Shown here one piece after another: positions 5,475 through 23,330 of a DNA stretch of 64,000 nucleotides (position 1 is its first letter; each line of letters starts with the position of its first letter). Below the pieces are notes generated by a model, which saw only the letters and a program-made list of their open reading frames with translations, did no database searches and was not told the DNA's origin. The stretch lies in NCBI RefSeq assembly GCF_019511645.1, contig NZ_JAEUAX010000002.1, positions 372,001 to 436,000 on the forward strand. The letters run 5' to 3'. The position numbers and the translations under genes were made by a program. The DNA comes from Microbacterium ureisolvens. Its GTDB lineage: Bacteria > Actinomycetota > Actinomycetes > Actinomycetales > Microbacteriaceae.

Positions 5475-6467
5475 TCAGCGAGGCTGAAGGCCGGCGGCGC
5501 GATAGACGTCGTCGACCACGCGCATGGTGCCGACGCCGCGACGGGCGTCCAGCAGGCTCGGCGAGCCGTCGGCCAGCACGGCGACCAGGTGCTCCAGTTG
5601 GCGTGCGTAGCTGTTCTCGCCCTCCGCGGCCTTGTCCTCCAGGAGGACATTCTCGCCCGCGGTGACGCGCAGCGTCGCGCCCCACTGCGGGACGATCACG
5701 CTCGTCGCGAGCAGTTCTGCCGCTGAGCCCGAAACCCGCAACGACATGGCGCCCTGGTCGTCGCCGAGGAAGGACGAGCGCACGCACGCACGGGCACCTG
5801 ACGGCAGCCGCAGGACGGCATCCGTCTGCAGGTCGATCCGGGGGTCGTCGCCGGAGAGCACCGCCGTGGCCGACTCGACGGCGGGCTCGCCCCACGCGGC
5901 CCGGATGAGGTCGACCGCGTAGCATCCGACGTCCATCACGGCCCCGCCGCCGAGGTCGCCGTCGAGGCGGATGTTGCCCGGCTTCACGACGAAGTGCGGG
6001 ATGCTGAAGTCGACGTCCACGCGCTCGATGTCGCCGAGCACGCCCGACGCGATCACCTCGAGAAGACGCTGCGTGAACCCGTGCAGCCGGTAGTGGAAGC
6101 CGACGAACGCCCGCCGGCCCGTCTCCGTGGCGGCGTCGGCGATGGCCGACGCCGTCGTGCCGTTCACCGACAGCGGCTTCTCGCAGAGGACGTGCTTTCC
6201 CGCCTGCAGCGCACGGATCGCCCACTCGGCGTGCGTGATGGGCGGGAGAGCAAGGTAGACGAGGTCGATCTCGGGATCCGACAGGATCGTCTCGTAGTCG
6301 CCGTGCTTCGGCAGGTTCACGCGCTCGGCGAAGACCCGAGCACGCTCGGGGTCGCGCGCGCCGATGGCGTCGACACGGATGCCGTCCACGTAGTGAGAAG
6401 GCTCCACCATCGCGCGCTCGGCGATGCCGCCGGCACCCAGGATGCCGACCCTCAGCTCCGATGCCAC
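5475..6467 (-). CDS. Gfo/Idh/MocA family oxidoreductase
   Basis: A 330-residue NAD(P)-dependent dehydrogenase. An N-terminal Rossmann domain begins with VGILGAGGIAERAM; the family CEKPL motif follows HVLC near residue 97, and GGAVMDVGCYAVDLIRAAWG supplies the usual C-terminal-domain substrate contacts. The GTG at 6467 is chosen for the GAGGG site and because it directly abuts the ThuA stop. Together with the ThuA-type gene and the TIM-barrel gene upstream it resembles sets that process oxidised (3-keto) sugars. That role is inferred from context. Confidence 0.88.
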   Translation of the reverse strand: MASELRVGILGAGGIAERAMVEPSHYVDGIRVDAIGARDPERARVFAERVNLPKHGDYETILSDPEIDLVYLALPPITHAEWAIRALQAGKHVLCEKPLSVNGTTASAIADAATETGRRAFVGFHYRLHGFTQRLLEVIASGVLGDIERVDVDFSIPHFVVKPGNIRLDGDLGGGAVMDVGCYAVDLIRAAWGEPAVESATAVLSGDDPRIDLQTDAVLRLPSGARACVRSSFLGDDQGAMSLRVSGSAAELLATSVIVPQWGATLRVTAGENVLLEDKAAEGENSYARQLEHLVAVLADGSPSLLDARRGVGTMRVVDDVYRAAGLQPR

Positions 6468-6469
6468 GC

Positions 6470-7342
6470 TCAGCCCTCGTGGTTGTAGTAGGGCCAGGGC
6501 AGGAACCGGCGCTCGCCCCGGCGGTCGGGCCCGTGGAGTGTGACGTCGCCGGTCGCTGCCCACTCGACGCCGCGGGGGAACATGCGGATGAACTCGATGC
6601 GGCGGAAGGTGTCGATGTCGTGGCCGATCGTGATGGTGAACGACCGGCCCTTCCCGTACTCGTTGATCCACGCGATGGGCTGGTCGGTGTTCATGCCGTT
6701 GAGCGCGGCGATGCCCCCCTCGGGGATGTCGACCGGGTAGTGCGACATCGGCCAGACCGGCGCCTTCTCGTAGGCCTCGAGGTCGTCGAAGGTCGTGAGA
6801 AGCACCTGCGCGCCCTCGTAGAGGTCCACGCCGGTCAGGATGTCATCGCCGGTGACGGTCCAGCGGGCGCTGATCCCCTCGGTGATGGGATGCCGCGGCT
6901 CGACCGTGTCGAGCTGCGCCTCGCCCCACGGCCGAGGGCGGAGGCCGGTCTCGTACGCGCTGAGCTTCGCGCCGCGCATGACGTTGTACTCCTCGGGATA
7001 GCCCCAGCGGTCCTCCTGTGCGGCGGAGCCGTGGAACCACACGATGCCCTTGCCGTCGTCGTGGACGAACTTCAGGATCGCGGCATCCGTCTCGGGTCCG
7101 AATCCGACGGCCTTCTCGAAGAAGCCGTCGCGACCCTCGAACACGACGATGAGCACGTCGTACTTGTCGATGATGTCGGCGCCGAGCCCGCGCGGGTCCT
7201 CGACGACCCGCACCTTGAAGCGCCCGGTGTCTTCGAGCAGCGTGGTGATCCACTGGTTGTGCAGACGGAAGCTGCGGTGCTCGTTGTCGTGCTCGCGGGT
7301 CATGTGACCCGAGAGGATGAGCACGTTCAGGACGTCGGTCAT
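6470..7342 (-). CDS. ThuA-domain protein (trehalose-utilisation / 3-keto-sugar family)
   Basis: A 290-residue protein with the ThuA glutamine-amidotransferase-like fold. It begins LNVLILSGHMTREHDNEHRS and contains IVWFHGSAAQED and WPMSHYPVDIPEGG, positions where the family carries conserved histidines. ThuA proteins accompany sugar oxidoreductases in trehalose and sucrose 3-keto pathways in Rhizobium-type systems; the exact reaction is poorly defined. The ATG at 7342 has a good AAGGAG site. It is co-directional with the dehydrogenase at 5475 and would be cytoplasmic, lacking a signal peptide. Confidence 0.82.
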   Translation of the reverse strand: MTDVLNVLILSGHMTREHDNEHRSFRLHNQWITTLLEDTGRFKVRVVEDPRGLGADIIDKYDVLIVVFEGRDGFFEKAVGFGPETDAAILKFVHDDGKGIVWFHGSAAQEDRWGYPEEYNVMRGAKLSAYETGLRPRPWGEAQLDTVEPRHPITEGISARWTVTGDDILTGVDLYEGAQVLLTTFDDLEAYEKAPVWPMSHYPVDIPEGGIAALNGMNTDQPIAWINEYGKGRSFTITIGHDIDTFRRIEFIRMFPRGVEWAATGDVTLHGPDRRGERRFLPWPYYNHEG

Positions 7343-7382
7343 CGGTGTCGCTCCTTGTATCGGTGGTTCCGGGCACGCCGGA

Positions 7383-7403
7383 CACCGGCCAGGGCAGCCG
7401 GTG
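7383..7403 (-). terminator. Weak stem between the TIM-barrel and ThuA genes
   Basis: Arms CACCGGC and GCCGGTG (7 bp) enclose a 7-nt loop in the 75-bp gap. It is too small to be a convincing terminator and may only modulate read-through. Confidence 0.25.
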
Positions 7404-7417
7404 AAGGGCGGGACGAT

Positions 7418-8425
7418 TCAGTCGGTCTTGCTCGAGAAGGCGGCGTCGAACGCGGCGGCGGGGGGCGTGATGGCGTTGAGCTTGCGGACGAACTCGATGG
7501 CCTCGGGTGCGCCGGCCAGGCGATCCATGCCGGCGTCCTCCCACTCGATCGAGGTGGGCCCGTCGTAGCCGATCGCATTGAGCGCGCGGAACAGCGGCTC
7601 CCACGGCACGGCGCCGTGCCCCGTCGACACGAACGTCCAGCCACGGCGCGGGTTCGCCCACGGCAGGTGGGATCCCAGCACGCCGTTGCGGCCGTCGAGG
7701 TTGGTGATCGACTCCTTCACGTGGACGTGGAAGATGTCATCTGCGAAATCGAGGACGAAGGCCACCGGGTCCAGCTGCTGCCACATGAAGTGCGACGGGT
7801 CGAAGTTGAGGCCGAAGCTCTTGCGGTGGCCGATGGCGTCGAGCGTCGCCTTGGCGGTCCAGTAGTCGTACGCGATCTCCGACGGGTGCACCTCGAGGCC
7901 GAACCGCACGCCGACCTCCTCGAACACGTCGAGGATCGGGTTCCACCGGTCGGCGAAGTCCTGGTAGCCGGCGGCGATCCACTCGTCGGAGGCCGGCGGG
8001 AACATCGCGACCGCCTTCCAGATCGACGAGCCCGTGAACCCGTTCACCGTCTTCACGCCGAGCTTCGCGGCGAACCGGGCCGTGTTCTTCATGTCCTCCG
8101 CGGCACGCTGGCGCACCCCTTCCGGCTCGCCGTCTCCCCACACCCGTGCCGGAAGGATGTCCTTGTGCCGCACGTCGATGGGGTCGTCGCACACCGCCTG
8201 GCCGGTGAGGTGGTTCGAGATGGCCCACACCTTCAGGCCGTTGCGCTCGAGGATGTCCTTGCGGGACTGCACGTACTCGTCGTCGTCCCACCGGGATACG
8301 TCGATGTGGTCTCCCCAGCAGGCGATCTCGAGGCCGTCGAAGCCCCACTCGCCGGCGAGCCGCGCGACCTCCTCGAACGGCAGATCGGCCCACTGGCCGG
8401 TGAACAGGGTGATCGGACGAGGCAT
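7418..8425 (-). CDS. Sugar phosphate isomerase/epimerase-like TIM-barrel protein
   Basis: A 335-residue AP-endonuclease-2-type TIM barrel. Candidate divalent-metal ligands are visible in the order expected: Glu in GLEVHPSEI, Asp and His in NFDPSHF, His in HVHVKE and Glu in SIEWEDAGM. Such proteins act as isomerases, epimerases or lyases on sugars and cyclitols. It is longer than the hydroxypyruvate-isomerase-like gene at 15010 and is not of the CarB subfamily. It has a clear AAGGAG site and shares an upstream TAGAAACA-type motif with the operon starting at 13449. Confidence 0.85.
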
Positions 8426-8486: not shown

Positions 8487-9677
8487 TCAGTGCGAGATCG
8501 TCTCGGCCGCCACCGGCGCCTCGACGCTCACCCAGCCGGACCCGGTCGCCGAGCTCTCCTCGACGGCCGCGAGCACGCGCTGCACCGACAGCCCCTCGGC
8601 GAAGGACGGGTGCGGGTCGGTGCCCTCGGCGATCGCGGTCACGAGGTCGACGACCTGGTGGCTGAAGCCGTGCTCGTAGCCGAGCATGTGGCCGGCGGGC
8701 CACCACGCCGAGACATACGGATGCTGCGCCTCGGTGACGAGGATGCGGGTGAAGCCCTGCGTGACCTCCGGCGCCGTGCGGTCGTAGAACCACAGCGTGT
8801 TGAGATCTTCGAGGTCGAAGCGCAGGGCGCCCTTGTCGCCCGACACCTCGATGGACAGGTCGTTCTTGCGCCCGGTGGCGAAGCGCGTCGCCTCGAACGA
8901 CACGAGGGCTCCGCTGGACAGGCGGCCGGTGAAGATCGCGATGTCGTCGACGGTGACCTCGCCGTAACCCTCCGCCGCCGTGCCCGAAAGGCCCGAGCCC
9001 GACCCCTGGAGCGGCCGCTCCTTCACGATCGTGTCGATCACGCCGGAGACGGCAGTCACGTCCAGCCCCGTCACGAACTGCGTCATGTCGATGATGTGCG
9101 CGCCGATGTCGCCGAGGGCCCCCGAGCCGGCGTGCTCCTTCTGGAGGCGCCACGCGAGCGGCATCTCGGGGTCGACGAGCCAGTCCTGACGGTAGGCCGC
9201 ACGCACCTGGGCGATCTTCCCCACCGCACCCTGGGCGATGAGATCGCGCACAAAGGTGACCGCCGGCACGCGGCGGTAGGTGAAGCCCACCATGGAGCGG
9301 ATACCGCGCGCCGCGGCGCGGGCCGCGGCATCGGCCATCGCCTCGGCCTCGCCCACGGTGTTGGCGAGCGGCTTCTCGCACAGCACGTGCTTGCCCGCCT
9401 CGAGCGCGGCGATGGCGATCTCGGCGTGCGAGTCGCCCGGGGTGACGACGTCGACGATGTCGATGTCGTCTCGCGCGATGACCTCGCGCCAGTCCGTCGC
9501 CGACTCCTGCCAGCCCCACTGGGCCGCGGCATCCGCCACCGCCTCGGCGTTGCGCCCGACGACCACGGCCATCTCGACCTCGTCCGGCAGTGAGAAGACG
9601 CGCGGCGCCTGCCGCCAGCCCACCGAGTGCGCGGCGCCCATGAAGCCGTAGCCAATCATGGCCACGCGCAGCGTCAT
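8487..9677 (-). CDS. Gfo/Idh/MocA family oxidoreductase
   Basis: A 396-residue dehydrogenase with Rossmann start LRVAMIGYGFMGAAHSVGW and CEKPLANTVGEAEAM near residue 100, followed by the family's alpha/beta C-terminal domain (LGDIGAHIIDM). Its first residues nearly match the truncated protein at 1-180, so the window holds two close paralogues. Its ATG overlaps the stop of the beta-subunit gene at 9674 (ATGA), making it the last gene of the deglycosidase operon. Gut C-glycoside pathways use a family member (DgpA) to form the 3-oxo sugar, so a role in oxidising or reducing 3-keto-glycosides is plausible. Confidence 0.88.
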   Translation of the reverse strand: MTLRVAMIGYGFMGAAHSVGWRQAPRVFSLPDEVEMAVVVGRNAEAVADAAAQWGWQESATDWREVIARDDIDIVDVVTPGDSHAEIAIAALEAGKHVLCEKPLANTVGEAEAMADAAARAAARGIRSMVGFTYRRVPAVTFVRDLIAQGAVGKIAQVRAAYRQDWLVDPEMPLAWRLQKEHAGSGALGDIGAHIIDMTQFVTGLDVTAVSGVIDTIVKERPLQGSGSGLSGTAAEGYGEVTVDDIAIFTGRLSSGALVSFEATRFATGRKNDLSIEVSGDKGALRFDLEDLNTLWFYDRTAPEVTQGFTRILVTEAQHPYVSAWWPAGHMLGYEHGFSHQVVDLVTAIAEGTDPHPSFAEGLSVQRVLAAVEESSATGSGWVSVEAPVAAETISH

Positions 9678-10090
9678 GCGAGCACGACCTCGCGCTCGAC
9701 GGGGACGCGGTTGGTGACGTACCGGCCGGGACCGCCGTCCACGCCCGGCATGATCTGCATGTAGAGCAGACGCATGGTGAGCACGACCTCGACTGTGAGC
9801 TTCTCACCAGGCTCCGGCGCGCGACCCAGATCGATCACGACCTCGGGCTTGTCGGCGACGAACCACAGCGTCTCGGACTGCTCGGGCAGCTCCTCGACGC
9901 GGTAGCTCTTGCCCTGGAGCTCGAAGCGCAGGGAGTCCTTGGGGATCTCGACGCCGTTGACGGATGCCGCGACATCGTCGACCGCCGAGAGCCAGAGGCT
10001 CCGGTACCAGGGCAGCTGAACCGAGACGGCGATGCCGCTGTCGGTGCGACGGACGTCCTTCTCGGAGAAGAGGGAGTTGTGGGTTGCCAT
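9674..10090 (-). CDS. C-glycoside deglycosidase beta subunit (CarC/DgpC-like, DUF6379)
   Basis: A 138-residue all-beta protein of the type that pairs with TIM-barrel alpha subunits in CarBC and DgpBC enzymes. Shared features include SVQLPWYRSLWLSAV, VNGVEIP, the ETLWF strand and LLYMQIMPGVDGGPGRYV near the C-terminus. The same segments recur in the N-terminal halves of the fused proteins at 19354 and 20861. The ATG start follows the NTF2-like gene by nine bases and has an AGGATCAGCC-type site. It most likely partners the alpha subunit at 10893. Confidence 0.85.
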   Translation of the reverse strand: MATHNSLFSEKDVRRTDSGIAVSVQLPWYRSLWLSAVDDVAASVNGVEIPKDSLRFELQGKSYRVEELPEQSETLWFVADKPEVVIDLGRAPEPGEKLTVEVVLTMRLLYMQIMPGVDGGPGRYVTNRVPVEREVVLA

Positions 10091-10099
10091 GGCTGATCC

Positions 10100-10900
10100 T
10101 CAGGCGTAGGTGTCGGTGAAGGTCTCGTGCGGCACCGGCGGGGCGGGCTCGAGCTTCTGCACCGTCTGCGGGCTGTACGGGTGGTTGGTCGAGGGGACCG
10201 GCTCGTCGGCCGGCGGCATGAAGACGGGCTTGCCGTCGTCGCCGAAGTACATGAGGTCGAGATCGAACGCGCCCTGGTTCTTCAGGCCGAAACTCACCCA
10301 GTTCTCCTCGAACGGGGCGCGGGCCAGCTCGTAGCAGCGGAACTTCCAGAACTTCCACTCGCCGTCCTGCTTGAGGAAGTCGATCGCGTACTTGCACCAC
10401 ACCCAGTGGGCCCAGACCTTCTTGCCGAGCACCTCGTCGGGCGAGTACATGTCGGGGAACGCCTCGGCCACCTTCGGGTCGGTGAGGCCCGATTCGGTGC
10501 CCGCCATGAGCCAGACGCCCTTCGCAGTCCTGCCGTCGGCGGCGACCTCGATGACCGGCGTCGTCGTGGCGTGCAGGATGAGCTTGCCCTCGGGGTGCGG
10601 GCGGTCGCGGTGGTATCGCGTCACGCTCTCCCACGTCGTGTACTGACCGGCGTTGGTGTAGCGCGCGCGGATGCCCTCCGTGCCCTCCTTCACCCACAAC
10701 GGGATGATCTGCTCGTCCTCGAAGGCGTTGTGCAGGTACATGTAGCGGTTGAACAGGTTCTCGACCTGACCGCGGTCCTCCGCGCGCTGAGCCAGCCGCT
10801 GGGCGGCAGCCAGCTGCTCGCGGAGGTCGGCGACCTCGGCGGCGAGCTCGGCGACCGAGACCTCGTCCACGGTCGTCGAGCTTGTCGAAACATCAGACAT
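10100..10900 (-). CDS. NTF2-like (SnoaL-type) protein with N-terminal coiled coil
   Basis: A 266-residue protein. Residues about 10-45 (ELAAEVADLREQLAAAQRLAQRAEDR) predict a coiled coil, followed by a cone-shaped NTF2/SnoaL-like domain (VENLFNRYMYLHNAFEDEQIIPLWV... and DGEWKFWKFRCYELARAPF). Family members include dehydratases, hydroxylase partners and cyclases acting on aromatic compounds. The start overlaps the upstream alpha-subunit stop by eight bases, and the beta subunit follows closely, so it is embedded in the deglycosidase operon. Aglycone processing is a guess; a structural role with the deglycosidase is also possible. Confidence 0.75.
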   Translation of the reverse strand: MSDVSTSSTTVDEVSVAELAAEVADLREQLAAAQRLAQRAEDRGQVENLFNRYMYLHNAFEDEQIIPLWVKEGTEGIRARYTNAGQYTTWESVTRYHRDRPHPEGKLILHATTTPVIEVAADGRTAKGVWLMAGTESGLTDPKVAEAFPDMYSPDEVLGKKVWAHWVWCKYAIDFLKQDGEWKFWKFRCYELARAPFEENWVSFGLKNQGAFDLDLMYFGDDGKPVFMPPADEPVPSTNHPYSPQTVQKLEPAPPVPHETFTDTYA

Positions 10901-11939
10901 TCGCGGTCTCCTTGGACTGCTCGGCGACGGTGTCTTCGATGGCCTTGCGCATGAGCGCGTGCTGCTTCTTCACGACGTCGATCGGGTCGACCACGCCGAG
11001 GTCGACGAAGGCGTGCCCCTCCCACTCGCTGGACAGATACCCCTGGTAGCCGCCCACGACGAACTGCTTCACGATGCGCGGGATGTCCATCGCCGGCTCG
11101 TCGCCGTTCTCGTCGATGTCGTAGAACTTCGCGTGCACGTGGAAGATCTGCGGCATGATGTCGAGCCACTCCTCCGGCGGCACGAGCCCGTGCATGTTGA
11201 ACGCGAGGCGCGTGTGCGGCCCGAAGCCGACCGGGTCGACACCTTCGCCGATCAGGTAGTCCTCGAACTTCTGGTTGCGCTCGTTCATCGGCATCGGCTC
11301 GTGCCAGATCTCGTCCATCACCGCGAAGTGCTTCGGATCCATGCCCATCAGTTCCAGCTGGTCCAGCAGCAGCGGAGACAGCGAGTGCATGGTCGATGAG
11401 AAGTCGGCGGTGAAGCCGAGGCGCTCCGACTGCAGCTCGTCGTACATCTCGCGCATCTGCACGACGGCGGGATTGTTCGGCCCGGACGGCGCGTGGATCT
11501 CGTAGCCGAGGTACTGGTCGTACTTCTCCGCGAGCGGCAGGAGGCTGCGCAGCAGCTCCTTGCCGTGCGAGCGGATGACGACCTTCTTGAAGCCGAGCGT
11601 GTGCGCGGTCTTCAGCTGGCGGGCGAGGAAGTCGTGCTCCTCGTCGGGCGTCATGTCGCGGTCCTTGCGGCGGCCCATGTCGAGGTTCGTGCCGACGGCG
11701 CTCGCCTCCAGGCCGTACTTCTCGAGCGAGTCGAACCAGAGCTTCACGAACTCCTGGTCGACGTCGGGGTACGTGCGCAGCAGCTGCGCGATGTTGAACT
11801 CGACGCCCGGGCCGATGCCCTCCTCGGCGACGGCCGCGATGAGAGTCTCGGGTGTGTAGAGGCCCGCGGCGAACTCACTCGTCAGCGAGTACAGCGTCGT
11901 GCCGAGCTTGATGCCGGTGCCGGCGATGCCGTCGGTCAT
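10893..11939 (-). CDS. C-glycoside deglycosidase alpha subunit (CarB/DgpB-like TIM barrel)
   Basis: A 348-residue TIM barrel related to sugar phosphate isomerases. The presumed metal site is intact: Glu147 (YEIHA), Asp179 (TADFSS), His269 (HVHAKFYDI) and Glu305 (SSEWEGH). Members cleave the C-C bond of 3-oxo-C-glycosides together with a DUF6379 beta subunit. It is much closer to the C-terminal half of the fused protein at 19354 (shared NLDMGRR.DRDMTPDEE and SSEWEGHAF) than to its operon neighbour at 11936. Translation is probably coupled to that neighbour through an ATGA overlap. Confidence 0.85.
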   Translation of the reverse strand: MTDGIAGTGIKLGTTLYSLTSEFAAGLYTPETLIAAVAEEGIGPGVEFNIAQLLRTYPDVDQEFVKLWFDSLEKYGLEASAVGTNLDMGRRKDRDMTPDEEHDFLARQLKTAHTLGFKKVVIRSHGKELLRSLLPLAEKYDQYLGYEIHAPSGPNNPAVVQMREMYDELQSERLGFTADFSSTMHSLSPLLLDQLELMGMDPKHFAVMDEIWHEPMPMNERNQKFEDYLIGEGVDPVGFGPHTRLAFNMHGLVPPEEWLDIMPQIFHVHAKFYDIDENGDEPAMDIPRIVKQFVVGGYQGYLSSEWEGHAFVDLGVVDPIDVVKKQHALMRKAIEDTVAEQSKETANV

Positions 11940-13048
11940 GCGGATGCTCCTTGCGTGGTCGGGAGCCAGGCGGCGAGCTGGGCGCGCGCCTCGGCGAGGT
12001 CGGTGGTCATGCGCGAGCCGGCGTCGGCGGCGGCGGAGCGCTGCACGGCCTGCTCGTCACGGATGATGTCGAACGGCGACTGCCAGTAGTTCCAGTGCCA
12101 GCCCTCGTACTCGCTGGAGATCGCACCGTTGTAGCCGTTCTCCACGAGCAGGCGGATGAGGTCGCGCACCGGCACGGACGGCTCCTCGTGCTGGTCGTCG
12201 ATGCCGAAGAACTTGCCGTGGACGTGCTTGATCCACGGGAAGATCTCGAGCCAGTCGTCGACGCGGGCCGGGCCGAAGAGGCCCGTGCCGTTGATCCCGA
12301 AGTCGATGCCCAGGTCGGGCCGCCCGTGCTGCGCCGCCAGACCGATGAACCGGCCGAAGCGCTGTCCGTGATCCGCCTGGTCGGCCGGGGGACCCTGCCG
12401 GTAGAACTCGTCCCAGAGTCCGGTGACCGCGGCCAGCAGCTCCTCCGACGCGCCGCGCCGGCGGTACGCCTCGATGAGCGAGGGGGCGAAGCCGGAGACG
12501 GTGGCACCCCAGTCCATGGTGAAGCCGAGGAACGGTGACCCGACCTTGTCGTAGCGGTCGCGCAGCGCCAGGATGCGCGGGTGCGACGCGTACTGGTCGG
12601 CGTGCACCTCGAGCGCGAGCGTGACGCCGTACTCCTCGGCGATGGGAGCGAGCGCCTCCATCGAGTCGGGGGTGATCGAGATCTGCACACGTGCGATGGG
12701 GAACCCGAGCTTTGCCGCGGCGGCGATCTGGCGGCGCATGTACTCCAACAGCTCGTCCTGAGTGAGGAGGCGGTCGCGGTGGATGCCGATGTCGGCGTTG
12801 ACGGCGAGCGAGGTGGTGACGAGCCCGGTCTCTGCGATCAGGTCCTTGAACCAGCCGGCGTAGTGGTCGTCGATCTCGGGGAAGCCGCGGAAGCTCGAGA
12901 ATCCGATGATCTCCAGGCCCGGGCCGAAGCCCTCGGCCGCCGCCTTGCGGATGAGACCCTCGAGGTCGTACTCGCGGCCGTGGAAGGCGCGCGTGAAGCT
13001 GTAGAGCGTCACGCCCTGGATGGGCGTGCCCTTCGCCTGGGCGGTCAT
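11936..13048 (-). CDS. carB: C-glycoside deglycosidase alpha subunit (CarB-like)
   Basis: A 370-residue TIM barrel with the subfamily's metal ligands Glu147 (LEVHA), Asp179 (TMDWG), His277 (KHVHGKF) and Glu313 (SSEYEGW). Compared with the gene at 10893 it has a longer loop at residues 215-265 and a C-terminal extension, pointing to a different glycoside preference. ATGA overlaps join it to a beta subunit (13045) upstream and the second alpha subunit (10893) downstream, so beta-alpha-alpha-NTF2-beta form one transcript. The carB assignment rests on family resemblance, the partner gene and the CarA-like oxidase next door. Confidence 0.82.
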   Translation of the reverse strand: MTAQAKGTPIQGVTLYSFTRAFHGREYDLEGLIRKAAAEGFGPGLEIIGFSSFRGFPEIDDHYAGWFKDLIAETGLVTTSLAVNADIGIHRDRLLTQDELLEYMRRQIAAAAKLGFPIARVQISITPDSMEALAPIAEEYGVTLALEVHADQYASHPRILALRDRYDKVGSPFLGFTMDWGATVSGFAPSLIEAYRRRGASEELLAAVTGLWDEFYRQGPPADQADHGQRFGRFIGLAAQHGRPDLGIDFGINGTGLFGPARVDDWLEIFPWIKHVHGKFFGIDDQHEEPSVPVRDLIRLLVENGYNGAISSEYEGWHWNYWQSPFDIIRDEQAVQRSAAADAGSRMTTDLAEARAQLAAWLPTTQGASA

Positions 13049-15839: not shown

Positions 15840-15959
15840 TCAGAACATCGGGTGGTCGTGGGCGGCGTGCACGGAGGCATCCACCACACGCTTGTGCGTG
15901 GAGAAGAGGTCGACGAACGTCCCGAACGCCGCGCGGTCGCCGGCGCCGAAGGGATTCAT
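15840..15959 (-). CDS. Possible 39-residue protein between permease and TIM-barrel genes
   Basis: An ATG at 15959 overlaps the permease stop (ATGA), the arrangement used throughout this locus, and opens a 39-codon frame ending at 15840. The peptide begins MNPFGAGDRAAFGTF and contains DASVHAAHDHPMF. It has no signal peptide or membrane segment and I do not recognise it. It may be a genuine small protein, the relic of a longer gene, or a leader coupling translation to the gene at 15804. Confidence 0.35.
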   Translation of the reverse strand: MNPFGAGDRAAFGTFVDLFSTHKRVVDASVHAAHDHPMF

Positions 15960-16792
15960 CCCTTCAGACCGCCGGCGAAGCCCTGGATGAAGCGCTTCTG
16001 AGCGAACAGGTAGAAGGCGAGGATCGGGATCATGGACACGATGACGATCGCGAAGATCTTGTTCCAGGACGACACCAGGGAGCCGATGTAGTAGTACATG
16101 GCGACCGGGAGGGTCTGATTCTCCGATCCGCCGAGGAAGATCAGCGACGTGAAGAAGTCATTCCAGACGATGAGCCCCGCCAGGATCGCGACGGTGCCCG
16201 TCGCGGGTGACATGAGCGGGAGCACGATGCGGAAGAAGATCTGCGTCCGCGATGCGCCGTCGATCGTCGCCGCTTCCTCGTACTCCGTGCCGAGACCGCG
16301 GAAGAATCCCGCGTACAGGAAGATCGACAGCGGCAGGAGCATCCCGGTGTACAGGACCACCATGCCCCAGATCGAGCCGGTCAGGCCCACCGCACGCGCG
16401 CCGATGTACAGCGGCACGGTGCCGAGCTGCGTCGGCAGGACGATGGCGATCAGGAAGAGGTAGAAGACGGCGCGGCTCCAGCGCCGGGTGCTGCGGGCGA
16501 TGACGTAGCCGGTGAGTGCTCCGAGCAGGACGAGGCCCAGAATGCTGCCGGCGGTGATGATGACGCTGTTGAGCAGACCCTGCAGGACGTTGGAGTTGCC
16601 CTGAGCCGTCAGCACCTCGGTGAAGTTGCTGAAATCCAGGCTGGACGGCGGTGCGAGGTTGGACGTGGTGAGCACCTCCTCGTCGGACTTCAAGGCGGTC
16701 GTGACGAGGAAGTAGAAGGGCGCGAGGAACAGAACCGCGAGGATCCAGAAGATGACCTCGCGCAGCCCGGTGAGCTTGGTGTAGCGGAACAT
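15956..16792 (-). CDS. Carbohydrate ABC transporter permease (MalG type)
   Basis: A 278-residue membrane protein with about six transmembrane segments and the EAA loop (YEEAATIDGASRTQIFFRIVLPLMSPA) that contacts the ATPase. The ATG at 16792 is preferred over an upstream GTG at 16810 because GAGGAGG sits six bases before it. It pairs with the MalF-type permease at 16794 and the lipoprotein at 17829. No ATPase gene is present here, so the system presumably borrows a shared MsiK-type ATPase encoded elsewhere, as is common in actinobacteria. Confidence 0.9.
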   Translation of the reverse strand: MFRYTKLTGLREVIFWILAVLFLAPFYFLVTTALKSDEEVLTTSNLAPPSSLDFSNFTEVLTAQGNSNVLQGLLNSVIITAGSILGLVLLGALTGYVIARSTRRWSRAVFYLFLIAIVLPTQLGTVPLYIGARAVGLTGSIWGMVVLYTGMLLPLSIFLYAGFFRGLGTEYEEAATIDGASRTQIFFRIVLPLMSPATGTVAILAGLIVWNDFFTSLIFLGGSENQTLPVAMYYYIGSLVSSWNKIFAIVIVSMIPILAFYLFAQKRFIQGFAGGLKG

Positions 16793-16793
16793 G

Positions 16794-17753
16794 TCAGGCC
16801 TCCTCGGCACGACCGGTGGTCACCCGCTGCTGGATGACGGCGAAAACCAGGATGATGAGCGTGAGCACGAGCGCCAGCGCGGCGCCGTAGCCGAAGTTCC
16901 CGAGCGCGAAGGACTCCTTGTAGACCTGGGTCGCGAGGGTCTCGGTGGCCCCCGCGGGGCCGCCCCCGGTCAGCGCCATGATCTGATCGAAGACGCGCAG
17001 GCCGTTGACGAGGCCGAGCGTGGTGGCTATGGCGACCGCCGGACGGATGGACGGCAGTGTCACGTGCCGGAAGCGCTGCCAGAGGTTCGCTCCGTCGATC
17101 GCCGCCGCTTCCTCGATCTCGACCGGCACGGCCGCGAGACCCGCCATGTAGATCACCATGGCGAACCCGGTGTTCTGCCAGACGATCACGATGAGCACGG
17201 TCCAGATCGCCCAGGTGGGGTCGGCCACCCAGGCCTTCGCGAACTCTTCGAGCCCCAGCGCGCGGAGCACGCCGTTGATCGGGCCGTTGTAATCGAAGAT
17301 GAACTTCCAGACGTACGAGACGGCGAGCGGGCTCAGCACGACCGGCATGAAGAAGAGGACGCGGAGGGCGTACCGGGTCTTCAGCCCGCGGTTCAGGCCG
17401 AGCGCCAGCGCGAGCCCCGCGATGTTGCTGAGGATCACGGAGGCGAAGGCGAGGAACAGCGTGTTGGTGACGGCGCCGATCTGGGTCGGGTCATTGAAGA
17501 TGGCGACGAAGTTGTCGAGCCCGATCCAGCTGAAATCGCCGATGCCCGACCAGTCGGTGAAGGCGAAGAACCCGCCGATCGCCGTGGCGACGTAGTGGAT
17601 AGCGAGAACGAGAAGGATGCCGGGCAGAGCCCACCACCAGTACCCGAACTTGAGCAGTCCAGGGCGGCGCGGCGCGGCATCGCGGCGATGCCCCCGGCGA
17701 TCGCGCTTGGGGACGATCAGCGCCTCGGTCTCGGAGTTCAAGGTGGCGGTCAT
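16794..17753 (-). CDS. Carbohydrate ABC transporter permease (MalF type)
   Basis: A 319-residue permease with a charged N-terminus (residues 1-35), six or seven membrane spans and the EAA motif VEIEEAAAIDGANLWQRFRHVTLPSIRPA. The ATG at 17753 has a GAGGAA site. It is the first permease after the binding protein and is separated from it by a hairpin at 17794-17822. Together with the 15956 gene it forms the heterodimeric channel of a CUT1-type importer, likely for the glycosides processed by this locus. Confidence 0.9.
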   Translation of the reverse strand: MTATLNSETEALIVPKRDRRGHRRDAAPRRPGLLKFGYWWWALPGILLVLAIHYVATAIGGFFAFTDWSGIGDFSWIGLDNFVAIFNDPTQIGAVTNTLFLAFASVILSNIAGLALALGLNRGLKTRYALRVLFFMPVVLSPLAVSYVWKFIFDYNGPINGVLRALGLEEFAKAWVADPTWAIWTVLIVIVWQNTGFAMVIYMAGLAAVPVEIEEAAAIDGANLWQRFRHVTLPSIRPAVAIATTLGLVNGLRVFDQIMALTGGGPAGATETLATQVYKESFALGNFGYGAALALVLTLIILVFAVIQQRVTTGRAEEA

Positions 17754-17793
17754 GATTCCTCGTGTTCGTACGTCATCGTGCGGAGGCCGGGGT

Positions 17794-17822
17794 GGCCGCC
17801 CAGGCACGAGGCCCGGGCGGCC
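17794..17822 (-). terminator. Stem-loop between binding-protein and permease genes
   Basis: Arms GGCCGCCC (17794-17801) and GGGCGGCC (17815-17822) enclose a 13-nt loop just after the binding-protein stop. A stem here would lower permease expression relative to the binding protein. Confidence 0.45.
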
Positions 17823-17828: not shown

Positions 17829-19130
17829 TCACTCGCCCCAGGCGGCGTCCATGTCTTCGAGCACCTGGTCGATCGTCTTCTGGCCGGTCAGCAGACCCTG
17901 CACACCGACCTGAAGCGCCTCGTAGACAGCCGGATTCGGCCAGATGTTGTTGGGCAGCGGCGCGTACGATCCCTCGGCGAGGAGGTCGACGATAGGCGAG
18001 TAGATGGTCTCGCTGAGGTCGAGGTCCTGGTACGAGGAGATCGGGAGCAGGCCCGACGCCTCGTAGTAGATCTCCTGCGCCTCCGGCGTCGCGAGCCACT
18101 CCACGAAGTCGGATGCGGCGTCCTTCTTCTCCGACGCGGCGTTGATCGAGATCGTGTAGTTCGAGCTGGCGATGATGTACGGGTCGCCGCCGTCCGCCGC
18201 GGGGAAGGGCTGCACCTTGAAGTCCGCCTCCGGCGGAGCGGCGGTCGCGATTTCGACTGCCGAGCCCGACGGGATGAAGCTGCCCACGGACGTCCCCTGC
18301 GAGAGGCCGTTGGTGATCGCATCGAAGCCGCCGCCCTCGGCGCCCGGCTGGAAGCACCCGCCCTCGTTCAGATCGATGATCGTCTGGAGGGTGTCTGCCC
18401 AGCCCTCGCTCTCGGCGAAAGTGGTGTCGCCTGCGGCGCGCTGCTCGTTCCAGTCGGGCGTCTCGGCGTAGACGCGGGTCGCGGCGATGCCCTGAGCGGT
18501 CAGACCGGCGTTGGGGCCTGCGGCGCCGGCGAGCGCAAGAAGTGACTTGCCGTCCGCGGCGAGTGCCGAGCAGGCATCGTAGAGGTCCGCCTCGGTCGTC
18601 GGCCACTCTTCGAGGCCGTTCATGGCCGCGGTGCCCATGCTGGCGACGACCGCGGCAATCGTGAAGTCCATCGGCTGGCCGTAGACCTCGCCGTCGATCT
18701 CGAAGATCGTCTCGCTGCCCTCGGGGACGAGTCCAGCGGCCGTGTCGCCCAGCGGCTCGAGGAAGCCCGCCTCCGCCAGCGGGATGATGCCGCGGGCGTC
18801 GCCGGATCCCGGCGTGGTCTGTACGACGTCGGCGGCGTTGCCCGCCTGGAACTGCGTGCGGATGGTCTCGCCGTACTTGTCGTTCGGCGTCGGGTTGGTC
18901 GTGATGGTGACGTCGGGGTTGGCTTCCATGTACGCCTTGGCGAGCGTCTCGTACGGGCTCTCGAGGTTGTTCGAAGTGGCGAACGTGAAGGAGAACTCGG
19001 CCGAGCCCGAGTCGCCGCTGTCGCCCGAGTCACCACCCGAGCCGGAGCAGCCGGCGAGGAGCAGTGCTCCGACCACCGGGACGGCGATGATCGCGGCCCG
19101 GCGAGCGGCGGAGGAACGGTGCTGTGTCAT
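17829..19130 (-). CDS. Carbohydrate ABC transporter substrate-binding lipoprotein
   Basis: A 433-residue family-1 extracellular solute-binding protein. Residues 1-27 form a lipoprotein signal peptide with lipobox LAGC and Cys28, followed by a Gly/Ser/Asp linker. The mature part has TFATSNNLESPYETLAKAYMEANPDVTI, typical of sugar-binding proteins of CUT1 importers, and a conserved C-terminal region with WPNPAVYEALQVGVQGLLTGQKT. It has its own promoter region (19131-19294) sharing a motif with the promoter of the fused deglycosidase genes, which supports a role in glycoside uptake. Confidence 0.9.
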   Translation of the reverse strand: MTQHRSSAARRAAIIAVPVVGALLLAGCSGSGGDSGDSGDSGSAEFSFTFATSNNLESPYETLAKAYMEANPDVTITTNPTPNDKYGETIRTQFQAGNAADVVQTTPGSGDARGIIPLAEAGFLEPLGDTAAGLVPEGSETIFEIDGEVYGQPMDFTIAAVVASMGTAAMNGLEEWPTTEADLYDACSALAADGKSLLALAGAAGPNAGLTAQGIAATRVYAETPDWNEQRAAGDTTFAESEGWADTLQTIIDLNEGGCFQPGAEGGGFDAITNGLSQGTSVGSFIPSGSAVEIATAAPPEADFKVQPFPAADGGDPYIIASSNYTISINAASEKKDAASDFVEWLATPEAQEIYYEASGLLPISSYQDLDLSETIYSPIVDLLAEGSYAPLPNNIWPNPAVYEALQVGVQGLLTGQKTIDQVLEDMDAAWGE

Positions 19131-19336: not shown

Positions 19337-19353
19337 CGCTTCGGGAGCCGGGT

Positions 19354-20841
19354 CTAGCGAACGACTCGCGCGGGTTGTACCGCTCGCATCGAGGCGCGGA
19401 TGAGGTCGTGCTGCTTGCGCACGAGCAGCAGCGGGTCGACCTCGCCGAGCTCGGCGAACGCGTGACCCTCCCACTCGCTCGACCAGTACCCGCGGTAGCC
19501 GCCTTCGACGAAGACCCGCACGAGCTCGGGGTAGTCGATCGCGGGCTCCTGGCCGCTCTCGTCGATGTCGTAGAACTTCGCGTGCACGTGCAGGATCTGC
19601 GGCATGATGTCGGCCCACTCGCGCGGGTCGACGTGGCCGTGCATGTTGAACGCGAGATGCGCGAACGAGCCGAGCCGGCCGGGATCGAAGTCCCGGCCGT
19701 TCAGGTAGCCGATGAACTCCTGCTGCCGCTCGCGGATCGGGGCATCCGTCGCCCAGATCTCCTGCAGACGGGCGACGGCCTCGTCGTCGAGCCCCGCTCG
19801 GCGCACGGCCCGCAACAGGGTCGGCGACATGCTGCGCATCGTCGATGAGAAGTCCGCGACGAAACCCAGGAGGGGCGAGTCGAGGTCGGCGTAGACGTCG
19901 CGCACCTTCATGATCTCGGGCGAGTTCGGTCCCATCGGAGCGTGGATCTCGTACGCCAGCTTCAGACCGAGGCTCTCGGCGACGGGCAGCAGGCGGCGCA
20001 GGAGGTCGGGCTTGGCGCTCTGGATGCGCACGAGCGGGAAGCCGAGCTTCTTCGCGCCCTGGAACAGCAGTTCGCTGAACTCGAACTCCTCGTCGGGCGT
20101 CATGTCGCGATCGCGGCGGCGGCCCATGTCGAGGTTGGCGCCGAACGAGCTGGCGTCGAAGCCGTGGCGGTCGAACGCGGCGCGCCACTGCGTGACGAAG
20201 TCGTCCGAGACGACGGGGTAGGTCGGCAGCACCTGCGACGCCACGATCTCGATGCCCGGTCCGATGCCGAGCTCCGCGACGCGGTCGAGGAGTCCGTCGA
20301 AGTCGTACCAGCCGGCGCGGAACTCCGCACTCGCCGAGTACAGCGTGAGGCCGAGCTGGAAGGGGTCGTCGCCGGACGCCGGCGGCGGGGGCGCGATCCC
20401 GGTCGCGATCGCCAGGAGCGCAGCATCCGTGTCGGTCACCGTCAGCGTGAACGACTGACGCACGATGTTCGGCACGTACATGCCGGGGCCGCCCTCCTGG
20501 CCGGGTGCGATCTGCATGTAGGGCAGGCGCAGCTCGCCGAAGATCTCGACATCGTGCTGCTGCCCGAGCGCGACCGGTTCAGCCCGACGGACGATGAGGA
20601 GTGGATGCTGCTGCAAGAACCACAGCGTCTCGCTCTGCTGCGGCAGATCGGCGATGGCGTAGCGGGTGCCGCCGAGCTCGAACGCGACGTCGTCGGCGGG
20701 GATCTCGACGCCGTCGACCGTGACGCGCAGCGTCGAGACGGATGAGAGCCAGAGGCTCCGGTACCAGGGGATCGTGAGCTTCAGCGCGAGCCCGTCCGGG
20801 TGCGGGCGGAGGCTGTCTTCGGCGATGAGTCCGTTGGGCAT
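19354..20841 (-). CDS. Fused C-glycoside deglycosidase, beta (DUF6379) plus alpha (TIM barrel)
   Basis: A 495-residue single chain. Residues 1-140 match the beta subunits (LTIPWYRSLWLSSV, VDGVEIP, ETLWF, LPYMQIAPGQEGGPGMYVPN). A Pro-rich linker follows (about 141-160), then residues 162-495 match the alpha subunit at 10893, with metal ligands Glu298, Asp330, His420 and Glu456 all present. The ATG at 20841 is chosen because the homology begins there; GAGAAC is a modest ribosome-binding site. It is the second gene of a two-gene operon led by a second fusion, and a strong terminator follows. Confidence 0.85.
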   Translation of the reverse strand: MPNGLIAEDSLRPHPDGLALKLTIPWYRSLWLSSVSTLRVTVDGVEIPADDVAFELGGTRYAIADLPQQSETLWFLQQHPLLIVRRAEPVALGQQHDVEIFGELRLPYMQIAPGQEGGPGMYVPNIVRQSFTLTVTDTDAALLAIATGIAPPPPASGDDPFQLGLTLYSASAEFRAGWYDFDGLLDRVAELGIGPGIEIVASQVLPTYPVVSDDFVTQWRAAFDRHGFDASSFGANLDMGRRRDRDMTPDEEFEFSELLFQGAKKLGFPLVRIQSAKPDLLRRLLPVAESLGLKLAYEIHAPMGPNSPEIMKVRDVYADLDSPLLGFVADFSSTMRSMSPTLLRAVRRAGLDDEAVARLQEIWATDAPIRERQQEFIGYLNGRDFDPGRLGSFAHLAFNMHGHVDPREWADIMPQILHVHAKFYDIDESGQEPAIDYPELVRVFVEGGYRGYWSSEWEGHAFAELGEVDPLLLVRKQHDLIRASMRAVQPARVVR

Positions 20842-20860
20842 GAGGTTCTCGTTTCGGCGG

Positions 20861-22162
20861 TCAGAGGCGGGAGGCGATCGAGCGGAGGAGCGAATGCTGG
20901 CGTCGCACCTGTTCGATGGAGCGCCATGGGACGCGCTCGCCTTCGTATTCGCTCGAGAGGTACCCCGTGTAGCCGGCGTCCTTGAGGGCACGCAGGACCG
21001 GCTCCCAGGGGATCTGCTGGTCCACGAGGTTCTCGTCGATGTCGTGGAACTTCGCCTGGATGAAGACGACGTACTCCGCGATGCCGGCGATGTCGGCGGG
21101 GTCGACCGCGATGCCGTCCAGGAAGGCGGGCCGGCGACCCGGCAGCTCGCCGGGCTTCAGCGGGATCGGGCGGTCCTGGAAGATGCCGGTGTCGAGCAGC
21201 AGCCCGAAGTGCTTCGTCCCCGTGCGCTGGATGAGGCCGATGTAGTCGTCGACGACCTCGTGCTTGATGGGCGTCGGCGAATGGATCTCGGGGCAGATGA
21301 CGACGTCGAGCTCGGCGGCGAGGTCGAGCGAGCGTTCGACGGACTCGGTCCAGATGGGGTGCGGGACGAGATCGCTCGAGACGACGCCGATCTTGGGACG
21401 CACGAATCGGAAGCCCAGACGCTTCGCGAGACGCAGGTCGCGCTGCAGCATCGCCGCGCCTTCGGCTGCCGTCAGATCGCGCGCGTTCACGCCGCTCGAG
21501 TGCAGGCGCGTGTCGATCCACGAGCCGTAGTTCGTCGGCTCGAGCGAGTACTTCTCGAGGAGCGCGAACCAGCGGTCGATCCACTCGGTCGTGGGCTCGG
21601 GATACCGCTCGATGTGGCCTTCGCCGAGGATCTCGATGCCGGTCGCGCCGACATCGGCCACCGCCGCGAGCGCAGTCTCGAGGTCCATGACGGTGCCGTA
21701 GTCGGTCATGAAGCTGTAGAGGCTGACGCCGTACTGGAACGGGCCGCCGTCCTCCGACGAGGTCAGCGTGATGTGCCGCGACACCTCGTAGGTCGACGGC
21801 TGGTGCTCCTCGGGGATGTACGACATGCGCAGGCGGAGCTGGATGGAGACCTCGTGCGTACCCTCGGGAAGGCCTCCCGGGTGAGGCACCGTGACGATCG
21901 CGGCCTCCTCGAGCGGCCAGCGCACGCCGTCCGAGTCCCACAGCTCCTGCAGCGAGTAGGTGCGGCCGGAGAACGTCCACCGGGGCACGTCGGCGGGGAC
22001 ATCGACGAGATCCCCGACCCGCACCGCCACCCCGTCGATGAGGGACGCCGCCATCCCGCGATACGACGGCATACGGAGGCGGAACTGGAAGCCGGTGACC
22101 TCACCCCCCTCGCGGACGTTGCGGAAGCCGACGGACTGGATGAGATCTCTCTCGAGAAGCAT
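20861..22162 (-). CDS. Divergent fused C-glycoside deglycosidase-like protein with altered metal site
   Basis: A 433-residue beta-alpha fusion. Residues 1-135 align with DUF6379 (FRLRMPSYRGMAASLIDGVAV, RWTFSGRTYSLQEL). Residues 142-433 form the TIM barrel (VSLYSFMTDY... and YLSSEYEGERVPW). Candidate ligands Glu292, Asp324 and Glu405 are kept, but the position of the usual metal-binding His is Gln369 (FIQAKFHDID instead of HVHAKFYDID), with His373 four residues on. Activity may differ from the other copies. It is first in its operon, facing the LysR gene. Confidence 0.8.
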   Translation of the reverse strand: MLLERDLIQSVGFRNVREGGEVTGFQFRLRMPSYRGMAASLIDGVAVRVGDLVDVPADVPRWTFSGRTYSLQELWDSDGVRWPLEEAAIVTVPHPGGLPEGTHEVSIQLRLRMSYIPEEHQPSTYEVSRHITLTSSEDGGPFQYGVSLYSFMTDYGTVMDLETALAAVADVGATGIEILGEGHIERYPEPTTEWIDRWFALLEKYSLEPTNYGSWIDTRLHSSGVNARDLTAAEGAAMLQRDLRLAKRLGFRFVRPKIGVVSSDLVPHPIWTESVERSLDLAAELDVVICPEIHSPTPIKHEVVDDYIGLIQRTGTKHFGLLLDTGIFQDRPIPLKPGELPGRRPAFLDGIAVDPADIAGIAEYVVFIQAKFHDIDENLVDQQIPWEPVLRALKDAGYTGYLSSEYEGERVPWRSIEQVRRQHSLLRSIASRL

Positions 22163-22376
22163 CGATGCTCGCTCTCTGGGTCGGGACCGCGCTGTCGCGG
22201 GCCGGGAGTCGTTCCCAGGGTAACAGCGTTACGCACTATTTAGACATAAGTAAGTATGATGTGCGCATAATCACACTATCGCCCGCCCATTGCCGGGAGC
22301 GATGCCACCTACCCCGCCCATAGACTGCGCAGATACACTGAGCCGAGGCATCCCGAACCCGGAGGAGCACATCGTC
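22163..22376. promoter_or_regulatory. Divergent LysR / deglycosidase-operon control region
   Basis: The 214-bp spacer contains the AT-rich stretch 22235-22275 with ACATAAGTA (22244-22252) and GCGCATAA (22263-22270). The same two blocks occur upstream of the importer gene at 19130. LysR proteins typically bind in such divergent spacers, so this is the likely operator. No confident -35/-10 pair could be assigned. Confidence 0.5.
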
Positions 22377-23330
22377 GTGTCCGATCAACCGCTGCTCTCC
22401 CGGCTCGACCTGAACCTCCTCGTCGCTCTGGACGCACTGCTGACCGAGCGCAGCGTGACGCGCGCCGCCGAGCGGCTGCACCTGAGTCAGCCCGCTCTGA
22501 GCGCCTCGCTCGCCCGGCTGCGCACGCACTTCAACGATCAGATCCTCGCCCGGCGCGGCAACACCTACGAGCTCACCCCGCTCGCGCTGCGCTTGACCGA
22601 GCACACCACCACCGCCCTCGAGGCCGCGCGCCGCGTGTTCGAAAGCCAGGCGACGTGGAGTCCGCGGGACTCCACCCGCGAGTTCTCGATCTACGGCTCG
22701 GACTACGGCTTCGCCACCATCGGCAGCGAGGTGTCCCGCCTCGCCGCCGAGGCGGCTCCGGGCGTGCGTTTCCGGTTCATGCTGCACAATCCGGCCATCG
22801 TGGACGACGCCCTCAACCGGCTGCGCTCGGCCGACGGCATGGTGATCCCCCACGGCCACCTCATCGACCTCCCGTACGCGGACCTGTGGCGCGACGGCTG
22901 GGTGGTCGTCGCGTCGGAGTCGAACGAGCTGGTCGGCGACGAGCTCACGATGGACGTGCTCGGCGCCCTGCCCTGGGTCTTCACGTACCAGTCGCGCACG
23001 GCCTTCACCTCGGCGGCCCGCCAGCTGCAGCAGCTCGGCATCGAGCCGCACATCGAGGCGGTCGTCGAGAGCTTCCTCGCGCTGCCGCACTTCATCGCCG
23101 GCACGAACCGCCTCGGCCTGATCCAGGCGGGACTCGCCCACGTCGCCGAGTCCGTGGCCGGCGTGCGCACGCTCGAGGCGCCCTTCGACGCCACCCCCGT
23201 CGTCAACGCGCTGTGGTGGCACCCCGTTCACGGCCGCGACCCCGAGCATGCCTGGATGCGCGGCATCTTCGAGCAGGCCGCAGCATCCGTATCGAATCGC
23301 CCGACGTCGGGCGTGAGCCTGCCGGTCTGA
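22377..23330 (+). CDS. LysR-family transcriptional regulator
   Basis: A 317-residue regulator. The N-terminal winged helix (DLNLLVALDALLTERSVTRAAERLHLSQPALSASLARLR, split over residues 12-50) is characteristic, and the effector domain resembles the NodD-like branch. The GTG at 22377 is picked for the GGAGGAG site nine bases upstream. It is transcribed away from the fused deglycosidase operon, the usual arrangement for a LysR activator of adjacent genes; the inducer could be a glycoside or aglycone. Confidence 0.9.
   Translation: MSDQPLLSRLDLNLLVALDALLTERSVTRAAERLHLSQPALSASLARLRTHFNDQILARRGNTYELTPLALRLTEHTTTALEAARRVFESQATWSPRDSTREFSIYGSDYGFATIGSEVSRLAAEAAPGVRFRFMLHNPAIVDDALNRLRSADGMVIPHGHLIDLPYADLWRDGWVVVASESNELVGDELTMDVLGALPWVFTYQSRTAFTSAARQLQQLGIEPHIEAVVESFLALPHFIAGTNRLGLIQAGLAHVAESVAGVRTLEAPFDATPVVNALWWHPVHGRDPEHAWMRGIFEQAAASVSNRPTSGVSLPV

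Follow-up and report, generated by a model that had tools for sequence, protein, structure and literature searches.

A probable C-glycoside catabolic operon in Microbacterium ureisolvens and its likely companions, SnoaL and Fus3

Introduction

C-Glycosides withstand ordinary glycosidases, and their mineralisation by soil bacteria is only partly understood. The locus described here, from the 4.33-Mb genome of Microbacterium ureisolvens, raises the question of whether one run of genes could provide for the uptake and cleavage of such compounds, and of which of its members go beyond systems already known. It lies in a stretch of 64,000 nucleotides, positions 372001-436000 of contig NZ_JAEUAX010000002.1 (C12), which is referred to throughout as the window. 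Positions 5475-22162 of the window encode a homologue of the CarA-type oxidases, four homologues of the C-glycoside deglycosidases (CGDs) and an ABC importer. Together these genes probably serve the uptake, C3 oxidation and C-C beta-elimination of aromatic C-glycosides. The locus is most likely a C-glycoside catabolic operon of the oxidise-then-eliminate kind, coupled to ring cleavage. Two further proteins, a SnoaL_4/NTF2-fold protein (SnoaL) and a CGD-like fusion (Fus3), are likely companions of the operon that belong to the same breakdown. All of the reactions are assigned by homology, on the strength of the genes and their order, conservation, residues and folds.

Organisation of the operon

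The 16 genes of the operon all lie on the minus strand, as recovered by Pfam scans, with a LysR gene diverging from them. With the starts chosen for Fus2 (~20841) and Gfo_C (~6467), 8 of the 15 junctions overlap or are separated by fewer than 10 bases, and the largest gap is 223 bases. In the direction of transcription the operon genes, followed by the regulator, are:

20861..22162, minus strand, Fus1, a beta-alpha fusion CGD of 433 aa (CGDB 116.9 bits, plus AP_endonuc_2)
19354..20841, minus strand, Fus2, a beta-alpha fusion CGD of ~495 aa (CGDB 59.7 bits; start chosen at MPNGLIAEDS)
17829..19130, minus strand, ABC substrate-binding protein (SBP), SBP_bac_1 (Pfam scan)
16794..17807, minus strand, ABC permease of the MalF type (Pfam scan)
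15956..16810, minus strand, ABC permease of the MalG type (Pfam scan)
15010..15804, minus strand, TIM_A, a xylose-isomerase-like TIM barrel (Pfam scan)
13499..15013, minus strand, GMC oxidase of the CarA/PsG3Ox type with His437 and Asn481 (homology to 7qf8 and 7dve)
13045..13449, minus strand, beta1, a CGD beta subunit (PF19906, 56.0 bits)
11936..13048, minus strand, alpha1, a CGD alpha subunit (AP_endonuc_2; 7dnm, 183 bits)
10893..11939, minus strand, alpha2, a CGD alpha subunit related to AgCGD2 alpha, 7dnm (AP_endonuc_2; 609 bits over 1-339)
10100..10900, minus strand, SnoaL, a SnoaL_4/NTF2-fold, LdpA-like protein of 266 aa (Pfam scan)
9674..10090, minus strand, beta2, a CGD beta subunit (PF19906, 54.1 bits)
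8487..9677, minus strand, Gfo_A, a Gfo/Idh/MocA oxidoreductase (Pfam scan)
7418..8425, minus strand, TIM_B, a xylose-isomerase-like TIM barrel (Pfam scan)
6470..7342, minus strand, ThuA-family protein (Pfam scan)
5475..6467, minus strand, Gfo_C, a Gfo/Idh/MocA oxidoreductase (Pfam scan; start chosen, reading frame open to 6671)
22290..23330, plus strand, LysR regulator, start uncertain (Pfam scan; divergent from the operon)

An initial annotation of this DNA had described a MalFG importer with ThuA, TIM-barrel and Gfo/Idh/MocA genes on one strand facing a LysR gene, and the scans bear this out. The range that it gave, 5475..23330, is right in its start and in the locus, whereas its end is the stop of the LysR gene, the operon itself ending at 22162. 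The nearest NCBIfam family to TIM_A is hydroxypyruvate isomerase, at 159.5 bits, which is below the cut-off of 353. A search of the whole genome with PF19906 returned five matches, four of them in the operon and one (C12:369577) 2.2 kb to the left of the window start. Because the PF19906 matches cluster here and the gene set recurs across genera, the locus is not a product of chance.

The oxidase and the four deglycosidase homologues

The GMC oxidase aligns over its full length with solved enzymes, scoring 856 bits against 7qf8 (PsPOx/PsG3Ox) and 802 bits against MtCarA (7dve), and its His/Asn catalytic pair is found at the very positions, 437 and 481, that the initial annotation had named. 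The two free alpha subunits, two free beta subunits and two beta-alpha fusions that it had listed were also recovered, by Pfam scans, reading frames and the genome search; Fus2 was found both as an open reading frame (ORF) open to 20991 and by the whole-genome PF19906 search. The CGDB domain scores above the Pfam cut-off of 27.6 in beta1, beta2, Fus1 and Fus2. The TIM barrels match CGD alpha subunits and the small proteins match CGDB/DUF6379, and the condition under which the initial annotation would have failed at the sequence level did not arise. Homology to solved enzymes and the residues of the active sites lend good support to its proposal of a CarA-like oxidase with four CGD homologues.

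The metal ligands of AgCGD2 are E147, D179, H269, K271 and E305 (PMC8563793; this and the other papers cited by PMC number are drawn on in excerpt). They are complete in alpha1, alpha2 and Fus2, while Fus1 has Gln at 269, and the catalytic His149/Glu307 pair is kept in all four CGDs of the window. These active-site columns read E H D H K E E in all orthologues of alpha1 (17/17), alpha2 (15/15) and Fus2 (16/16), and E H D Q K E E in all 18 orthologues of Fus1. Fus1 matches 8qrz_A, a CGD of Microbacterium testaceum, at 808 bits over residues 1-433, and the alignment places the same Gln at 269 in both. In the tree, Fus2 clusters with alpha2. Since the published CGDs fall into C6-cleaving and C8-cleaving types (PMC8563793, excerpt) and alpha2 is close to the C8-type AgCGD2, it is plausible that the four CGDs would widen the substrate range.

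The core of oxidase and CGD is of a known kind, and the description of the locus as a new system was too strong for it. The same pairing of an FAD oxidase of this family with a split CGD is represented by CarA/CarBC of Microbacterium sp. 5-2b and by MtCarA (7dve) and MtCGD of M. trichothecenolyticum; strain 5-2b is said, in the excerpt of PMC8563793, to have one CGD pair only, as against four CGDs and Fus3 here. Two CGDs in one strain are already known from Arthrobacter globiformis (AgCGD1 and AgCGD2, the latter being 7dnm and 7dnn), and alpha2 is AgCGD2-like, but M. ureisolvens has four, including two fusions, and SnoaL separates alpha2 from beta2. The M. testaceum CGD (8qrz, 8un2), considered as a deposited structure only, is a beta-alpha fusion with the same Gln at 269 as Fus1, which in this operon stands beside other CGDs. 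Finally, PurABC of Paenarthrobacter provides a soil oxidase and CGD route for puerarin, and the excerpt of PMC12724307 describes it with one oxidase and one CGD pair, in comparison with the four CGDs found here.

The proposed pathway

In the predicted route the glycoside would be imported by the SBP together with MalF and MalG, and the GMC oxidase would then oxidise C3 of the sugar. Beta-elimination by alpha1/beta1, alpha2/beta2, Fus1 and Fus2, which are likely to differ in their C6/C8 or aglycone preference, would release the aglycone and 1,5-anhydro-hex-1-en-3-ulose. The latter would be hydrated and reduced, probably by TIM_A/TIM_B and the Gfo proteins, and the ring of the aglycone would be cleaved, probably by the flavin monooxygenase, extradiol dioxygenase and FAA hydrolases encoded in the flank. 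Control would be exerted by the divergent LysR protein.

Conservation and spread of the cassette

PF19906 occurs in 20 of 299 genomes in a sample of the family, and 16 of these 20 have 3-5 copies. For the 19 other genomes 12-55 kb were fetched around the matches, and 58 kb were joined for the window's own; genes were assigned by best match, with matches covering <45% of the reference dropped, and absences refer to these stretches, outside which a missing gene may lie. Enrichments are raw counts, uncorrected for kinship among genomes. The tree is a quick one, supported only by SH-aLRT (the Shimodaira-Hasegawa-like approximate likelihood ratio test), and long branches meet in it, that of Fus3 among them.

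Alpha1, beta1, alpha2 and beta2 are found together in 15 of the 20 PF19906 genomes, mostly in one order. The exceptions are G016 and G292, which are rearranged, G055, in which Fus1 lies elsewhere, and G274, in which Fus1 and Fus2 are swapped. The Fus1-type beta part is a separate short frame (138-157 aa) in G028, G045, G103, G171 and G226. A minimal set of alpha1, beta1, oxidase, TIM_A, TIM_B, Gfo and LysR is seen in G073 and G188, where it is joined by FMO_L (the flavin monooxygenase of the flank), an FAA hydrolase, an amidohydrolase and a cyclase; G045 and G171 have a Fus1-like CGD with an oxidase. G232 has a divergent set, and its "Fus1" and "Fus2", so labelled by best match, fall outside those tree clades. 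Where TIM_B is found in the family cassettes, its identity is 74-91%, and a best-match LysR orthologue (66-73%) is present in 13 of the 19 other genomes.

A collinear cassette, including SnoaL and Fus3, is carried by M. trichothecenolyticum DSM 8608, which may or may not be the strain of the published papers, and the genome of Pseudarthrobacter siccitolerans 4J27 also has the cassette. In Arthrobacter sp. StoSoilB13 it lies on a 1.0-Mb plasmid (NZ_AP024649.1:553015-590028), running from Fus1 by way of SnoaL and Fus3 to VOC_L (the extradiol dioxygenase homologue of the flank), FMO_L and the amidohydrolase. Of the 25 genes assigned there, 20 show an identity of 66-87% and the remainder (SBP, Fus3, ThuA, Gfo_E and the gene without a Pfam match) one of 31-61%. 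This plasmid carriage, together with patchy occurrence, suggests transfer of the cassette as a unit. In the collection used here, the record NZ_AP024649.1 carries a single annotated feature. Alpha2 matches 23 plasmid records, that of StoSoilB13 at 78% and the other 22 at <60% identity, these being from Novosphingobium, Enterococcus, Arthrobacter, Sphingobium, Croceicoccus, Deinococcus, Niallia and Pantoea.

SnoaL, an NTF2-fold partner of the deglycosidases

The SnoaL_4 gene, which the initial annotation's gene list lacked, shares 8 bases with the end of alpha2 and stops 9 bases ahead of beta2. Strong matches to it number 10 in the 299 family genomes, and all 10 stand in cassettes between alpha2 and beta2. 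Among genome records, 80 of 94 confirmed SnoaL loci were kept, many with flanks of <10 kb, and matches covering <40% of the reference were dropped; a CGD beta gene lies within 10 kb of the SnoaL relative in 77 of these 80, which extend from Actinomycetota to Alphaproteobacteria. The beta profile that we built also weakly matches some alpha subunits, and the 77 loci were rechecked against short beta ORFs and fusions. The counts from the family sample and from the genome records are not independent, several genomes being common to both.

A search of NCBIfam returned no family for the protein. In structure models, which are single chains without metal or ligand, its nearest solved fold is LdpA, an NTF2-family diarylpropane lyase (8abt-8abw). 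His110 of SnoaL, invariant in 22 sequences, aligns with His97 of NaLdpA, which we take to be catalytic because 8abu is titled as an H97Q mutant with substrate, and many Trp, Tyr and Phe residues are also invariant. Further fold neighbours include scytalone dehydratase, the bile-acid 7-alpha-dehydratases and ketosteroid isomerase, all of them cofactor-free acid-base enzymes. SnoaL thus keeps the fold of LdpA and the position of His97, but it is set apart by an identity of 22-23% and by its genomic partnership with CGDs, and it is not filed as LdpA. Its most likely role is that of an acid-base catalyst needing no cofactor, in which His110 would stand where LdpA has His97 and the substrate would be an intermediate that is a keto-glycoside or bears the aglycone.

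Apparent fusions of SnoaL with alpha2 or beta2 (P0154, P0221 and P0178) were considered as proof of contact and set aside, these over-long proteins being read as frame slips in metagenome contigs. Another relative, P0233 (59%), has by eye a signal-peptide-like N-terminus, a hint that some relatives are exported. No pairing of a SnoaL-like or NTF2 protein with C-glycosides was found in the open-licence papers searched, which did not cover the original CarA and Deinococcus-cluster papers, and the main text of PMC8563793 does not mention SnoaL.

Fus3, a deglycosidase relative without the catalytic base

The fifth PF19906 match is a CGD-like beta-alpha fusion, Fus3, in the left flank of the window, which was taken as L006 (C12:354001-374000):

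L006 15532-16971, plus strand, Fus3, the CGD-like fusion of beta and alpha parts, whose end is 1 kb short of the window's left edge

Its CGDB score of 27 bits in the genome search, or 25.2 bits in the scan, falls under the cut-off of 27.6. Gln replaces the catalytic His149 and Gly replaces Glu307, while the metal ligands are kept, and a plain fifth CGD is accordingly rejected. The same substitutions with the same ligands are found in all 14 readable family copies; the copy of G226 is truncated and enters neither this count nor the tree. In a search that scored the 7997 candidates sharing most words, the pattern EQDHKEG recurs in 119 of the 120 homologues listed out of 640 matches, the remaining one having EGDHKEG, and the closest named relatives among the matches listed are Microbacterium proteins. 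The Fus3 copies form one clade (SH-aLRT 100), and residues 151-479, the part covered by the fold search, which left aside the N-terminal beta part, are confidently modelled with a CGD-alpha fold. Identity to the copy of the window's genome is 33-64%, compared with 68-86% for alpha1 and 75-86% for alpha2. The most likely reading of Fus3 is a metalloprotein derived from a CGD and no longer capable of the His-dependent elimination. A role as 3-keto-glycal hydratase is not favoured, as G073 and G188 show no Fus3 but do have TIM_A and TIM_B.

The left flank and aromatic ring cleavage

From its left end, L006 carries the following up to Fus3:

left end, a transporter gene and a short-chain dehydrogenase gene
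2574-4169, GMC2, a second GMC oxidase with His457/Asn501
after GMC2, an MFS-like gene, an FAA hydrolase and an amidohydrolase
7900-9030, FMO_L, an FAD monooxygenase (FAD_binding_3)
after FMO_L, a cyclase and a second FAA hydrolase
11108-12127, VOC_L, an extradiol dioxygenase homologue
between VOC_L and Fus3, a gene without a Pfam match, Gfo_E and a ROK regulator

Fus3 and a further Gfo/Idh/MocA gene thus lie beyond the left edge of the window. The flank contains the domains expected of the Fde/Ifc type, namely an FAD_binding_3 monooxygenase and an extradiol dioxygenase whose ligands are two His and a Glu. In VOC_L these are presumably His152, His216 and Glu267, as placed by motif. In the isoflavone system, IfcA and IfcB (FdeE/FdeC-like), a flavin monooxygenase and a glyoxalase-fold dioxygenase, hydroxylate and open the A ring (PMC11069340, excerpt). 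FMO_L and VOC_L resemble this enzyme pair, compared by description only, but differ in adjoining a C-deglycosylation cassette. In a survey that scored at most seven candidates per genome, VOC_L was found at an identity of at least 63% in every PF19906 genome but G232, which makes 19 of 20; in 15 of these a CGD gene is no more than ~20 kb away from it.

Positions 29884-39921, mostly in the right half of the window, form a beta-ketoadipate-pathway-like region with genes for a thiolase, a CoA-transferase, a lyase family protein, an intradiol (protocatechuate-type) dioxygenase, an IclR regulator and a homologue of 4-hydroxybenzoate 3-monooxygenase. The protocatechuate-pathway and 4-hydroxybenzoate hydroxylase homologues could receive the ring fragments. 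Short-chain dehydrogenase, acyl-CoA dehydrogenase and AMP-binding enzyme genes at 41857-46971 are possibly for aromatic side chains. Beyond LysR, on the operon strand at 23401-26196, are genes for an RpiB/LacAB-like isomerase, a second extradiol-dioxygenase-like protein (VOC_R) and a transporter (MFS_R), whose membership of the cassette is unsupported within the family. Homologues of VOC_R (38-57%) and a flavin monooxygenase lie within 10 kb of SnoaL in L105, L108, L109, L111, L115 and L121. To the left of the operon, 251-5411 holds a ribose-type ABC importer and a ROK regulator; ROK_1 and the permease were seen in only one (L101) of the 80 SnoaL loci.

Alternative explanations

Several observations weigh against a C-glycoside operon coupled to ring cleavage and accompanied by an LdpA-like SnoaL. 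Fus1 departs at one position from the published metal ligands, SnoaL is distant from LdpA in sequence, and 5 of the 15 cassettes having alpha2 and beta2 showed no SnoaL within the stretches fetched. VOC_L also occurs, at the same threshold, in 8 of the 279 family genomes without PF19906, and in G073, G143, G188 and G274 it is ~60 kb or more distant from a CGD gene or sits on a different contig. The stretches fetched from the other 19 PF19906 genomes yielded no RpiB, VOC_R or MFS_R. Moreover, the CGD PuCGE also cleaves 3-keto-phlorizin, an O-glycoside, and C-glycosides need not be the main substrates (PMC10628242, excerpt). This activity would fit an operon mainly for O-glycosides, acting through beta-elimination of 3-keto-O-glucosides and with C-glycosides as side substrates, as would the clade II oxidase of Microbacterium sp. 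3H14, which acts on aspalathin and phlorizin (PMC11673046, excerpt) and to whose clade GMC2 could belong. However, the 3-keto forms of daidzin, genistin and apigetrin shed their sugar unaided (PMC12724307, excerpt), and four CGDs would therefore be a poor investment for O-glycosides. With the His149/Glu307 pair, proposed for C-C cleavage, kept in all four CGDs and alpha2 near the C8-C-glycoside enzyme AgCGD2, a mainly O-glycosidic operon seems distinctly improbable, and a C-glycoside operon remains the most likely reading.

As to the companions, the five cassettes without SnoaL in their fetched stretches mean that it is not needed for alpha2/beta2, and its standing as an obligate CGD subunit is therefore rejected. 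It is quite possible, though we incline the other way, that the sugar steps run as proposed and SnoaL acts on the released sugar rather than on an aromatic substrate, as a hydratase or keto-isomerase whose substrate would be 1,5-anhydro-hex-1-en-3-ulose or the 2-/3-keto isomers. The acid-base chemistry of its fold neighbours would suit this, its linkage to CGDs from Actinomycetota to Alphaproteobacteria suggests a shared intermediate, and of the products it is the sugar that is shared; puerarin oxidation, too, gives 3-keto-puerarin along with isomers (PMC12724307, excerpt). Yet the closest fold, LdpA, handles phenolic diaryl compounds, the invariant Trp, Tyr and Phe suggest an aromatic pocket, and the cassettes without SnoaL must still process the sugar. 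Action on an aglycone-bearing or keto-glycoside intermediate is thus retained for SnoaL. That Fus3 is instead a decaying, non-functional CGD copy would agree with the loss of its His and Glu, its score below the curated cut-off, its lower identity than alpha1 or alpha2 and the truncated call in G226, but it is made very unlikely by the metal ligands kept in every readable family copy, the exact seven-residue pattern in all but one of the homologues listed, the single well-supported clade and the confident fold. A CGD-derived metalloprotein remains the preferred reading of Fus3. A bolder joint proposal, which we regard as rather unlikely, would make SnoaL a metal-free third partner of C-glycoside cleavage, LdpA-like and acting via a quinone methide to open, isomerise or cleave C-glycosyl phenols, inherited with CGDs in Actinomycetota and Alphaproteobacteria, and at the same time make Fus3 a new CGD-derived class that keeps the metal site, has Gln for the base and performs another reaction on a second set of keto-glycosides.

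Significance

SnoaL, Fus3 and the ring-cleavage flank, the last two lying outside the window, go beyond what the initial annotation described. What is new is the constancy of the larger set together with its two unexplained members, SnoaL and Fus3. For the breakdown of C-glycosides by soil bacteria, the locus names as candidates an NTF2-type protein, a conserved base-less CGD-like protein, a second oxidase and a ring-cleavage flank.

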